Shown piece after piece: positions 46,058 through 50,860 of a DNA stretch of 64,000 nucleotides (the first letter of the stretch is position 1; each line of letters starts with the position of its first letter). The position numbers were made by a program, and so were the translations under genes. The notes under the pieces are model-generated. The model saw only the letters and a program-made list of their open reading frames with translations, had not been told where the DNA came from and did not search any database. Source of the DNA: Nitrospirota bacterium. GTDB taxonomy: Bacteria; Nitrospirota; Thermodesulfovibrionia; Thermodesulfovibrionales; JdFR-88. The stretch lies in contig JAKAKS010000051.1 in NCBI GenBank assembly GCA_021813405.1, forward strand, positions 1 to 64,000, in the 5' to 3' direction.

Positions 46058-48271
46058 TTACTGAGTCTGGAAATTACTTGTAGGGCTTTGGGAAATAACC
46101 TGGCCATTTGAATCAACCGCCTGTACTGCCCAATAATAGGTGCTTCTGCTGTCAAGGTTCGAAACCGTATAGGATATTGTGCTGGCGCTGCCGCTTGAGA
46201 CAGACTGAGTGCCTGCCCCACCACACGATGAAAAGGCCGCAGCCACAAACAAAAGCGCTGCTATAAGCAGTAGCCTTTTCTTTTTATTCGTGAACACAAT
46301 TCCCGCCGGAAACACAAGCCCAAAAGGCAGCAACCCCACTCCGAGCCCTGCAAACAATGATTTGTCATTCTCCCTGGAATTAATCAGATATGCAACGTCC
46401 ACAGGTGATGCATTACTCAAATCAGAATTTTTCGAATACAACAGCCTGTATTTGTAAGGATTCTCATTTTCAGGCTTTTCCCAGGTAAACGTAACCGTTG
46501 TGGAAGTGGCCTCCCCTTGCGATGGCGATACAAGCAGAGGCGACACAGAGCCAGATGTGGCAGTTGTTGAACCGGAGGTGGAATTCGTAATGCTGCCAGT
46601 TCCCGAACTGGTTGACGTAGTTGTAGTACCGGATGTAGAGCCCGTTGTTGTGGTGCCGGAAGTTGATCCTGTTGACGTTGTTGTACTACCCGAAGCAGAT
46701 CCGGTTGAAGTTGATGTAGTAACTGATGTTGACCCAGTTGACACTGCCGTAGTCCCTGACGTGGAGCCGGTAGACGCAGTTCCGGAAGTCGTCCCGGTTG
46801 AAGTTAAGCTGGAAGTAGTGCCTGCTGGATAGACGCCGTTCAGTGTCTGCCAGATACCGCCGTTTGAAGCCCAGGTAACGCTCATCCCAAGTTCAGACTG
46901 TATCCTGCTTTCCATAGGCCAAGGCCAAAGCGGGCTGGAAGTGAGCATGCCATTGACGTATTCGTAAAGGGCATTGGCTCCGCGGTCCCCGATAGCGGAT
47001 GAAGGAATCAGATACGCCCCAAGGCCGTAAGTGGAGTAATCGTAATTGGGGTTTGTAAAACTATCGCTGCCGCTGCCTGAGCCGGAAGAATACAAGTTGT
47101 TCTGGGAATCGCCGGTAAGCCCACCGCTCTCCCATCCCGGATTGTTAATCGCAGAATTGCCCGACACGTAAGTTGCAAGGTTATAACTGTTGCTGCCAAA
47201 ATTGGCAACCAGTATGGCGGCATTGTGTGCGCCTTCAACGGTGTTATTTTCAATGGTCATATTTGTGTCGCCGCCGTTACGCAGAGGATATCCGTAATTA
47301 TTGAGGACCACATTGTCCTTGAAAATGGTGCCGGAGCATGTGCCCATTCCGCTGTCGACGGTGATCCATATGCCGTAAGACGACATATTGCGGGTGATAT
47401 TGCCATACGCCCTTTCGCCCGTAAGCCCATTGTAATGTCCCCAGAAGAGTATGCCGTCCGTCCCGCTGCCATTGTCGACTATAACATTGTTTTCAACCAG
47501 AACATTGCTTACACTGTAAATCTGGATACTGCTAGGGCCAATGGAATTGTTGCCCGGCTGCCAGTAAATGAAATTCCTGCGTATAACGCTGCCTGTGCCA
47601 TATACGTTGATGCCCACGCGGGGGGCAATCGTAGTGTAGGCGCTCGCAGCGTTCTCAACGTATACCGCGCAGTCTTCCACAAGCGTGTTTACTGCAGAGT
47701 TGTCAATTTCTATACCCATTGAGTTGTTTTCGCTTGCGCCGGCAACCGTGCCGGAGAAGCCCATGCCGAATTTATTCACAATATCTCGACGGAGTATGTC
47801 GTTGCCTCCCCATATTTCAATTCCATGAGACCAGCCAGACCCGTTGCCGCTGTTTCTAAAATTGATGCCGTCAATTTCCACGTAGGAGGCCGCGACCTGG
47901 CATGTAACATAATTGCCCTGCCCGTCTATGACCGCATTGCCATCGTTAAGGGCTTTAATGGTTATGCGCGAAGAAGAGTTGCCGGACGCCCTTACATACA
48001 GCACAACGGAGCCGCTCCCGGCGTTATTGATCGTGTAAGTGCCATCTTCCAGGTATAGAGTGTCGCCAGGGCTGAGTATGCCCATCGCATGGGAAAACGT
48101 CCGCCATGGCGCAGAAATGGTTCCAGCGGAACTGTCCGACCCGGACGGGGATATGTAATAGGTTGCAGCCGATGCAGCACCAGCATGGACTAATCCACCA
48201 AAGACTAGAATTGGCAGAAATGCCAGCACCAGCCTCACCAACTTGCTTCTTTTCAAAAACTTCCTTCCCAT
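46058..48271 (-). CDS. Secreted beta-helix protein (DUF1565-like), paralog B, with Ser/Thr/Gly linker and interrupted FN3-like C-terminus
   Basis: Signal peptide ending ASA; ATYYISPSGSDSSAGTISAPWRTFSHAM...PGDTLYLEDGTY; SSPLWPWPMESRIQSELGMSVTWASNGGIWQTLNGV; RBS GGAGG upstream of ATG. Confidence 0.88.
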   Translation of the reverse strand: MGRKFLKRSKLVRLVLAFLPILVFGGLVHAGAASAATYYISPSGSDSSAGTISAPWRTFSHAMGILSPGDTLYLEDGTYTINNAGSGSVVLYVRASGNSSSRITIKALNDGNAVIDGQGNYVTCQVAASYVEIDGINFRNSGNGSGWSHGIEIWGGNDILRRDIVNKFGMGFSGTVAGASENNSMGIEIDNSAVNTLVEDCAVYVENAASAYTTIAPRVGINVYGTGSVIRRNFIYWQPGNNSIGPSSIQIYSVSNVLVENNVIVDNGSGTDGILFWGHYNGLTGERAYGNITRNMSSYGIWITVDSGMGTCSGTIFKDNVVLNNYGYPLRNGGDTNMTIENNTVEGAHNAAILVANFGSNSYNLATYVSGNSAINNPGWESGGLTGDSQNNLYSSGSGSGSDSFTNPNYDYSTYGLGAYLIPSSAIGDRGANALYEYVNGMLTSSPLWPWPMESRIQSELGMSVTWASNGGIWQTLNGVYPAGTTSSLTSTGTTSGTASTGSTSGTTAVSTGSTSVTTSTSTGSASGSTTTSTGSTSGTTTTGSTSGTTTTSTSSGTGSITNSTSGSTTATSGSVSPLLVSPSQGEATSTTVTFTWEKPENENPYKYRLLYSKNSDLSNASPVDVAYLINSRENDKSLFAGLGVGLLPFGLVFPAGIVFTNKKKRLLLIAALLFVAAAFSSCGGAGTQSVSSGSASTISYTVSNLDSRSTYYWAVQAVDSNGQVISQSPTSNFQTQ
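46525..46832 (-). repeat. Low-complexity Thr/Ser/Gly coding repeat
   Basis: Encodes TSTGTTSGTASTGSTSGTTAVSTGSTSVTTSTSTGSASGSTTTSTGSTSGTTTTGSTSG...; recurring GTTGA(T/C)G/CCGGAAGT units on plus strand. Confidence 0.85.
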
Positions 48272-48290: not shown

Positions 48291-48328
48291 TAAAAAAAGC
48301 CTGTTTCCAGCAAAAAAAGGAAACAGGC
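48291..48328 (-). terminator. Intrinsic terminator serving as riboswitch expression platform (gene B)
   Basis: Minus strand GCCTGTTTCC-loop-GGAAACAGGC followed by TTTTTTTA, between aptamer and RBS. Confidence 0.85.
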
Positions 48329-48357
48329 CTCCAGGGATAAAACCCTGGTTGAGAGCA

Positions 48358-48466
48358 CTGTTTCTACGGCAGCCCGGCAGTCCTGTTCGCCTCACCGGCT
48401 GTGGATTTCAGGATCCGCGGCTTTGTGCCCCCTGGTTGCCCAGGGTTTACCTTTTCGGAAACAACA
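48358..48466 (-). ncRNA. GEMM-I (cyclic di-GMP-I-type) riboswitch aptamer, copy 1
   Basis: Minus strand TGTTTCCGAAAAGGTAAACCCTGGGCAACCAGGGGGCACAAAGCCGCGGATCCTGAA...CAGGACTGCCGGGCTGCCGTAGAAACA: GNRA loop (GCAA), AAACC, GCC..GCCGGGCTGCCG and closing P1 TGTTTC/GAAACA. Confidence 0.82.
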
Positions 48467-48640: not shown

Positions 48641-50668
48641 CTATTGAGTCTGGAAATATCCCGTAGAGCTCTGGGAAGTAACATGCCCGGCTGAATCGAC
48701 GGTCTGGACTGCCCAGTAATATTTAGTACCGCTTGCCAACCCGGAGACCGTAGTTGACAAGTTGCCTGATGCAGTATTGCCGCCTGAAGCCGCTGATGTT
48801 CCAGACGCTCCGCCGCCTCCACCACAGGAAGAAAAAGCCACAGCCGCAACCAGGAGCGTTGCCAGCAGCAGGAGCCTTTTCTTTTTATTATTTAATATGA
48901 TGCCCGCCGGGAACATTATCCCAAAAGGCAGAAGCCCCATCCCCAGCCCGGCAAAGGCTGAATTAACTGGAGCCTGGGCCTGCGCCGAGGAATTTATTAC
49001 AGTTGCAAGAGAGCCGTTGCTCAAATCGGAATTTTTGGAATACCAAATTTTGTATCCAGCAGGGTTGCCCTGCCCCGGTTTCGTCCACGCAAATGTTACA
49101 GTTGTAGATGTAACCTGCCCATTGGAAGGCGAAACAAGCTGGAGTGATGTTGATCCGGAACCGGATGGCTGCGACGATGACGACGAATTAACACCATTCA
49201 GCGTCTGCCAGATGCCGCCATTAGAAGCCCAGGTAACGCTTCTTCCCAGCTCCGACTGTATCCTGCTTTCCATAGGCCATGGCCATAGCGGGGTGGAAGT
49301 TAAAGTGCCATTTTGATATTCATACAAAACGGATGCGCCTATGTTAGATCCTGCAAGGGCCGAAGGTATCATCAGATATGCGCCATTGCCGTAAGTGGAA
49401 GTATTGTACCCCGGGTTAGTTGAGCTGTCACCAGTCCCGCTATTGGCCGACGTGCCGTAAAAATTGTTGGAACCTTCAGATGTAGAGCCTATATAACTGC
49501 CCCACGCCGATATCCCACCGCCGGAACAATTCAGAAAAGAGTTGCTCTGCGCATTGGTATTCAATGTGTAGCCGCCCGGATATCCCGACTGCTGCATTGA
49601 TACAATGCTCAGCCCTGGATTATTCCCGGCGTTAACGACAGTATTGTTTTTAAGCGTCTGGTTATTGTCGCCGCCATTTCTGAATCCATCTCCGGTATTT
49701 ATCAGCACATTGTTTTCCATATCAGTGCCGCTTACCTGGTCCGATCCGTTTTCCTGCGTTGCAGTCCAGATCCCCCATATAGATGTGTTCATAACAACGT
49801 TGCCTAATACCTTGTTGTTTTGGGCCTCGCCATTATAAGTGTTCACCCAAACCAAAATCCCGTCGCCCCCGTTACTGGGATCGCCAACTATAACATTGTT
49901 TTCCACAATGTCATTGCTCTGCCCGTATACCTGAATGCTGCCAGGGCCTACTGGGGAACCGCCGGGCTGCCAGTAAATGAAATTCCGTCTTATGACAGTA
50001 TTGCTGGCCCAGGTATTGATACCAAGCCGTGGTGTGCCATATGACTGACTGGTGCTTGAGGGAATATAGACAGCGTTGTCTTCAAGCAGATCATTGGAGC
50101 CGCCTATATTAATACCGGCGCAATTATTTTCCTGCGATGAGGCCGATGGGTCATTATAGCCAAAGCCATTGACTATGCACCTTCTCACCGTTATGTAACT
50201 GCCGCTCAAGTCCATCCCATGGCCCCAGTTGGTGCCGTTGCCTCCGCTGTTGCGGAAGTTTATTCCATCTATTTCTATATAGCTTTGGTATGCCCTGCAG
50301 GCTATAACGCTCTGCTGACCGTCCACAATTGCCTGCCCGTCGTTTAGAGCCTTGATCGTTATGGGATTGCCCGAAGAGCCCGATACCGTAATATACAGCA
50401 CAGCAGGCTGGCCGGGGTTGTTATTTGGGGTGTACGTCCCGTCTTCAAGATACAGGGTATCACCAGGCTGAAGAACGCTCATTGCATGCGCAAACGTGCC
50501 CCAGGGCGACGCGTTTGTTCCAGCGGAGCTGTCCGATCCGGATGGAGATATGTAATAGGTTGCAGCAGATGCCGCCCCGGCGCAAACCAATCCACCAAAG
50601 ACCAGAACCGTCAGAAATGCCAGCACCAGCCTCGCCAGTTTACTTTTCTTCAGAATCTTACTTGCCAC
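48641..50668 (-). CDS. Secreted beta-helix protein (DUF1565-like), paralog C, with interrupted FN3-like C-terminus
   Basis: GTG start at 50668 behind GGAGG (VASKILKKSKLARLVLAFL, aligned with MGRKFLKRSKLVRLVLAFL of paralog B); the track start at 50749 would lie inside the riboswitch. Same N-terminal DUF1565-like block and LWPWPMESRIQSELGRSVTWASNGGIWQTLNGV. Confidence 0.88.
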   Translation of the reverse strand: MASKILKKSKLARLVLAFLTVLVFGGLVCAGAASAATYYISPSGSDSSAGTNASPWGTFAHAMSVLQPGDTLYLEDGTYTPNNNPGQPAVLYITVSGSSGNPITIKALNDGQAIVDGQQSVIACRAYQSYIEIDGINFRNSGGNGTNWGHGMDLSGSYITVRRCIVNGFGYNDPSASSQENNCAGINIGGSNDLLEDNAVYIPSSTSQSYGTPRLGINTWASNTVIRRNFIYWQPGGSPVGPGSIQVYGQSNDIVENNVIVGDPSNGGDGILVWVNTYNGEAQNNKVLGNVVMNTSIWGIWTATQENGSDQVSGTDMENNVLINTGDGFRNGGDNNQTLKNNTVVNAGNNPGLSIVSMQQSGYPGGYTLNTNAQSNSFLNCSGGGISAWGSYIGSTSEGSNNFYGTSANSGTGDSSTNPGYNTSTYGNGAYLMIPSALAGSNIGASVLYEYQNGTLTSTPLWPWPMESRIQSELGRSVTWASNGGIWQTLNGVNSSSSSQPSGSGSTSLQLVSPSNGQVTSTTVTFAWTKPGQGNPAGYKIWYSKNSDLSNGSLATVINSSAQAQAPVNSAFAGLGMGLLPFGIMFPAGIILNNKKKRLLLLATLLVAAVAFSSCGGGGGASGTSAASGGNTASGNLSTTVSGLASGTKYYWAVQTVDSAGHVTSQSSTGYFQTQ

Positions 50669-50682
50669 TTTAAACCTCCAAA

Positions 50683-50720
50683 CAAAAAAGGCCTGTTTCC
50701 CTTTAAAAGGGAAACAGGCC
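50683..50720 (-). terminator. Intrinsic terminator serving as riboswitch expression platform (gene C)
   Basis: Minus strand GGCCTGTTTCCCTT-TT-AAGGGAAACAGGCC followed by TTTTTTG. Confidence 0.87.
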
Positions 50721-50748
50721 AACAGGGATAACACCCCGGTTGAAAGCA

Positions 50749-50860
50749 CTGTTTCTACGGCAGCCCGGCAGTCCTGTTTGCCTCGCGTACGGCTGGGGAT
50801 TTCAGGATCCGCGGCTTTGCGCCCCCTGGTTGCCCAGGGTTTACCTTTTCGGAAACATCA
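50749..50860 (-). ncRNA. GEMM-I (cyclic di-GMP-I-type) riboswitch aptamer, copy 2
   Basis: Minus strand TGTTTCCGAAAAGGTAAACCCTGGGCAACCAGGGGGCGCAAAGCCGCGGATCC...CAGGACTGCCGGGCTGCCGTAGAAACAG; contains the GEMM-type GCGCAAAGCC core. Confidence 0.86.

Follow-up and report, generated by a model that had tools for sequence, protein, structure and literature searches.

A class-I cyclic di-GMP (c-di-GMP) riboswitch of the GEMM-I type, found on the minus strand of a 64,000-nucleotide stretch of Nitrospirota DNA (the window), probably acts as a transcriptional OFF-switch for a gene encoding a secreted beta-helix protein, a direction of control that we infer from its alternative helices. The 3' strand of the aptamer's P1 helix (strand A) is shared by two mutually exclusive helices, pairing with the P1 5' strand (P) to close P1 or with the 5' arm of a downstream terminator (T) to form an antiterminator. 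The same platform recurs at a twin copy in the window (copy B) and at locus L001 on contig C4 of the source genome, which carries six GEMM-I RNAs in total on 2.9 Mb in 56 contigs. By class the window RNA appears ordinary and known, and it is of modest interest as a new member with a conserved, somewhat unusual platform. Feature coordinates are collected in Table 1.

Table 1. Positions of riboswitch elements and regulated genes in the window.
Feature	Position	Strand	Details
GEMM-I aptamer, copy A	48460-48364	-	RF03167 60.2 bits, RF01051 57.3 bits; G20/A47/C92, U22-A45, enlarged P3
P strand (P1 5' side), GUUUC	48462-48458	-	pairs with GAAAC 48364-48360; P:A probability 0.90 for transcript ending after A
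P1 bulge, UA	48366-48365	-	copy A
A strand (P1 3' side, switching strand), GAAACAG	48364-48358	-	from length-resolved folding
Linker hairpin CCAGGG-UUUUAU-CCCUGG	48348-48331	-	-11.4 kcal/mol
T strand (terminator 5' arm), CUGUUUC	48326-48320	-	alternative partner of A; A..T hairpin -21.7 kcal/mol, z -4.16
H strand (terminator 3' arm), GAAACAG	48307-48301	-	partner of T
Intrinsic terminator, copy A	48329-48292	-	stem GGCCUGUUUCC/GGAAACAGGCU + U7; -17.8 kcal/mol, z -4.62 vs shuffles
Gene A, secreted right-handed beta-helix protein	46058-48271	-	737 aa; PF13229 8e-7; ribosome-binding site GGAGG 48282-48278
GEMM-I aptamer, copy B	50854-50755	-	RF03167 59.6 bits, RF01051 55.8 bits; G20/A47/C92, U22.G45
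Copy B platform	50755-50693	-	A 50755-50749, T 50717-50711, H 50699-50693, then U tract
Gene B, beta-helix paralogue	48641-50668	-	675 aa; likely GTG start 50668; Chondroitinase B fold 9.7e-8, read from longer ORF 48641-50749

Aptamer identity and probable ligand

The initial annotation had placed a GEMM-I core on the minus strand, and its coordinates, strand and parts agree with Rfam matches that lie far beyond chance. In the covariance-model check set beforehand, RF01051 scored copy A at 57.3 bits against a cut-off of 35 bits, a gathering score that copy B exceeds as well. When the window was scanned with all of Rfam, exactly two matches were returned, both to RF03167 (c-di-GMP-I-GGC; E=1e-11 for copy A), whose cut-off of 59 bits the two copies pass marginally. 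Both the twin copy and RF03167 as the best-scoring family go beyond what had been annotated. P1 of copy A carries a UA bulge, which we take to recall the bulged A95 of Vc2; its P2 reads CCCUGG-GCAA-CCAGGG, and its P3 is ~20 nt larger than in most relatives.

In Vc2 numbering, the ligand contacts are G20, A47 and C92 (PMC4744006; PMC3764141), and both window copies have these c-di-GMP-type bases. Of the two ligands that had been considered for this RNA, c-di-GMP is favoured by this set of bases as the putative ligand, whereas cGAMP is disfavoured by the presence of G20, not A20, in both copies. The source genome encodes 14 GGDEF and 3 EAL domains, which we count in favour of the c-di-GMP model. 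The lower P2 pair 22-45 is kept but atypical, as copy A has U22-A45 there and copy B has U22.G45; C22 and G45 are highly conserved in class I (PMC3764141), and their replacement could weaken affinity.

That the RNA instead senses 3',3'-cGAMP, like related Geobacter riboswitches, is unlikely. The source genome does have a Hypr-type GGDEF gene (GHLIGS with GGDEF; L017, G000:C31:31255-31725, with orthologues L195-L205), and GHxxGS together with GGDEF is the signature of cGAMP synthases. However, this gene is kept in 12 of 12 family genomes and so has no discriminating power, leaving no variation to correlate with riboswitch types. In work on Geobacter, A at position 20 reportedly marks cGAMP riboswitches (GEMM-Ib), and L051 of G006, a cGAMP-type aptamer from the same family, carries A20 along with C21-G46 and U22.G45, against G20 in both window copies. 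Despite its Hypr gene, the source genome yielded no cGAMP riboswitch of the A20 type.

Competition between P1 and the antiterminator

The proposed alternative pairing of GAAACAG in the P1 3' strand with CUGUUUC in the terminator arm holds up in computation, forming a hairpin of -21.7 kcal/mol (z -4.2) that displaces P1 entirely in folding. When the copy A transcript was folded at growing lengths, at equilibrium with neither ligand nor pseudoknots, the probability of P:A was 0.90 for RNA ending after A and 0.86 after the linker, falling to 0.00 after T. Over the same course A:T rose from 0.00 to 1.00 once T was transcribed and stayed at 0.96-0.98 until H was complete, and T:H became dominant at full length only (0.77). 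Copy B followed the same course with a weaker initial P:A (0.49), A:T at 0.99 and a final T:H of 1.00, and its antiterminator and terminator have computed energies of -18.6 (z -3.9) and -24.3 (z -6.3).

Holding P1 closed at lengths where A:T is the best fold takes 7.2-9.0 kcal/mol for copy A and 6.1-10.4 kcal/mol for copy B, energy that ligand binding plus kinetics would have to supply. Forced P1 leaves the terminator intact, which lies wholly downstream and coexists with the whole aptamer; as in OFF-switches of the Cd1 kind, it is by computation the antiterminator, not the terminator, that competes with P1. The terminator stands directly before the ribosome-binding site as annotated, its U7 being followed by the Shine-Dalgarno sequence GGAGG (48282-48278) and ATG at 48271. 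A scan for sigma-70-type promoters just upstream of the riboswitch gave no match.

At low c-di-GMP, A would quit P1 for T the moment T has been transcribed, making T unavailable to H, and the gene would be read. At high c-di-GMP, the bound aptamer would keep P:A closed and leave T free to pair with H, ending transcription upstream of the ribosome-binding site. The linker of many relatives can also pair with the J1/2-P2 5' strand of the aptamer and may help to open it when empty. The OFF direction, first put forward in the initial annotation, is supported by computation, in that P1 and the antiterminator are exclusive and the layout is kept in 39 members.

Platform lineages and the linker

The search set comprised 179 genomes of the same order, and 39 distinct members, most of them from Nitrospirota, carry the full platform. 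Named genomes scanned for an exact pattern gave 33 stretches, also mostly from Nitrospirota (including Thermodesulfovibrionales), with some from Nitrospira, Geobacter and Desulfobacterales; no copy of the riboswitch was found in the viral contigs searched. Across the 39 members, standard pairs make up 83% of P:A, 95% of A:T and 98% of T:H positions, and A:T is better kept than outer P1, whose two outermost P:A pairs lack conservation. A permutation test on these members gave no signal of compensatory covariation in A:T (P=0.38), the strands varying too little.

Platform type follows the P2-base subtype: among aptamers with a terminator found, those of the GGU subtype have it downstream (OFF-like) in 38 of 40 cases, whereas 43 of the 46 with C at position 21 have the terminator 5' arm within the aptamer itself, an ON-like arrangement (Fisher P=2e-18, a value inflated by shared ancestry). 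The most suitable reading of this pattern is a pair of lineages whose platform types are opposite. The terminator scan covered all lengths, and in L004, L036 and L077 it picked an antiterminator-like or other hairpin, not the terminator; the two ON assignments within the GGU subtype (L160, L139) look like false positives.

These lineages also bear on whether the window RNA could be an ON-switch in which ligand prevents termination, a reading we consider very unlikely. Within the same order, a terminator 5' arm inside the aptamer, as in pilM (PMC9262584), does occur in 48 of 118 GEMM-I RNAs with a terminator found. The window copies, however, belong to the GGU subtype with its downstream terminators, and their own terminator is wholly downstream and compatible with the aptamer, so that only the antiterminator clashes with P1.

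Contact bases were counted in 151 aptamers aligned to a model built in this analysis, a set gathered with RF03167 and RF01051 and therefore biased to high scorers; positions 20/47/92 are G/A/C in 136, G/A/U in 8 and A/A/C in 7. All 151 have A47 and none has G47. It is thus highly improbable that the window RNA belongs to a c-di-GMP-I-GGC variant class with altered ligand recognition, even though RF03167 outscores RF01051 on it, just past the cut-off (60.2 vs 59). The G at position 47 in RF03167, as taken from the model consensus and not from the family's authors, is A in the window as in every aligned aptamer, and on L001, which has the same platform, RF01051 outscores RF03167 (66.7 vs 65.4). 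Base 47 thus gives no support to the "GGC" label, even if Rfam ranks it first. Pairs 21-46/22-45 show clear compensatory alternatives among the 151 aptamers (GU/AC, GC/GC, CC/GG), which supports P2 as drawn. The least probable reading, a relic aptamer in front of a terminator that serves as a constitutive leaky attenuator, could draw on the deviation of U22-A45 from the usual C22-G45 and on full-length equilibrium folds that favour the terminator even without ligand, but U22-A45 is a common subtype (47 of the 151) and not decay, and every contact base and the A:T:H set persist in both of the diverged copies (56% protein identity) and across genera.

Several variants were seen alongside the c-di-GMP OFF-switch layout. 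Three GGU-type members (L074, L151, L160) have no evident downstream terminator and carry a linker complementary to the Shine-Dalgarno region (e.g. CCACCUCC with GGAGGUGG), which suggests translational versions of the switch. Six loci are tandem (L052, L055, L056, L063, L087, L090), with a GGU-type OFF-like switch and its terminator immediately ahead of a GGC-type aptamer, an arrangement that might serve as a c-di-GMP gate with two steps; in L052, L055, L056 and L063 the next gene, where readable, encodes a secreted fibronectin-like protein. A second GEMM-I lineage with G20/A47/U92 occurs in the source genome (L003, L005) and in the same family (L039, L043, L046, L048, L049, L050), and by base-pairing logic it might prefer adenine at one ligand position (cGAMP). 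In several of its members, the terminator region contains GCCUUUUCG, complementary to CGAAAAGGC in the aptamer.

Many platform members hold, in the linker between A and T, a stretch like GGUUUACCUUUUC, which is reverse-complementary to GAAAAGGUAAACC in the member's own aptamer, a segment comprising J1/2 plus the 5' side of P2. Linker-aptamer duplexes reach -31 kcal/mol in L001, where the linker stretch GGUUUACC has an aptamer partner and pairing is strongest, and comparison with shuffled linkers gives p<0.05 for 19 of the 39 members. In copy A the 5' part of the linker, CCAGGGUUU, is complementary to AAACCCUGG in the aptamer (-17.1 kcal/mol, p=0.04 vs shuffles); the match is weak in the two window copies (p=0.04 and 0.09), where the linker self-folds. 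Taken together, the linkers fit their own aptamers better than swapped linkers do, with none of 5000 permutations as good for all 39 members, and P=5e-5 for the 25 members left after dereplication compared to P=0.6 for a control aptamer segment. Judged from these permutations, the linker is an unexpected element that coevolves with the J1/2-P2 strand of the aptamer, and we tentatively propose that it helps to dismantle the empty aptamer.

Wherever linker-aptamer pairing dominates in a member, A:T is possible only as a pseudoknot across it. For L001, the fold favoured by nested folding combines the linker-aptamer helix with the terminator, and OFF control at this locus therefore requires either a pseudoknot or kinetic trapping. 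One possible, still doubtful, generalization is a three-strand platform, in which the linker would act as an anti-aptamer on J1/2-P2 and the P1 strand would pair with the terminator arm across it as a pseudoknotted antiterminator, with polarity fixed by lineage and the OFF and ON lineages marked by their ligand-adjacent P2 pairs. We know of no described GEMM-I RNA with such a platform. Closely related aptamers with opposite platform types in one order, together with an anti-aptamer linker coevolving with the aptamer, offer a natural comparison in which the evolution of opposite outputs from one aptamer class becomes directly testable.

Regulated genes and comparison with known systems

The products of genes A and B are 56% identical over 500 aa of their beta-helix part. 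Gene A also matches part of the pectate lyase PelN model, with a score well under the curated cut-off, and with family signals that are weak to moderate the two proteins are perhaps polysaccharide lyases or surface proteins. Their neighbours encode glycosyltransferases, a UDP-GlcNAc 2-epimerase, a member of the UDP-glucose dehydrogenase family, a Polysacc_synt_2 protein and a dTDP-sugar epimerase. The genes behind this switch are beta-helix-like in two further family genera as well (L027 of G002, L029 of G008), whereas at L001 and L028 the product encoded next is predicted to be lipoprotein-like and matches no family. The C-terminal parts of both beta-helix genes (46058-46570 and 48641-49150) encode a fibronectin-like domain that is broken up by a hydrophobic stretch, by KKKR and by a lipobox-like FSSCGG; for the gene B copy there is a weak match, under the cut-off, to the C-terminal anchoring domain "lipo-invert" of NCBIfam.

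Secreted beta-helix proteins among exopolysaccharide genes would thus stand under a predicted c-di-GMP OFF-switch in the little-studied Nitrospirota. The proposed logic would have the protein made at low c-di-GMP and its production stopped in the state in which cells are sessile and build matrix, which suggests that beta-helix proteins are made as cells leave that state.

Among known systems, Vc2 of Vibrio cholerae shares G20, A47, C92, the GNRA loop of P2 and the P1 bulge with the window RNA (contacts: PMC4744006, PMC3764141), which differs in having U22-A45 or U22.G45 for C22-G45, a J1/2 one base shorter and a longer P3. RF03167 resembles the window RNA in overall consensus, with a score just past the cut-off, except for the model's G at position 47. 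The ON-switch pilM of Geobacter metallireducens (PMC9262584) has a highly similar aptamer fold and transcriptional control, but it senses cGAMP and its terminator consumes an aptamer strand, whereas in the window copies position 20 is G and the terminator is a separate element downstream. Cd1 of Clostridioides difficile, a proven OFF-switch (PMC9262584), shares the class-I aptamer, a T and H pair compatible with the aptamer, an antiterminator formed by the 3' P1 strand A with T, and the OFF logic, predicted for the window RNA by computation. The Cd1 antiterminator pairs with C87 and G86 of the binding pocket (PMC9262584), whereas A:T in the window starts below them, in P1 (GAAACAG); relatives of the window RNA also add a linker strand complementary to J1/2-P2, and the two systems differ in phylum and target gene.
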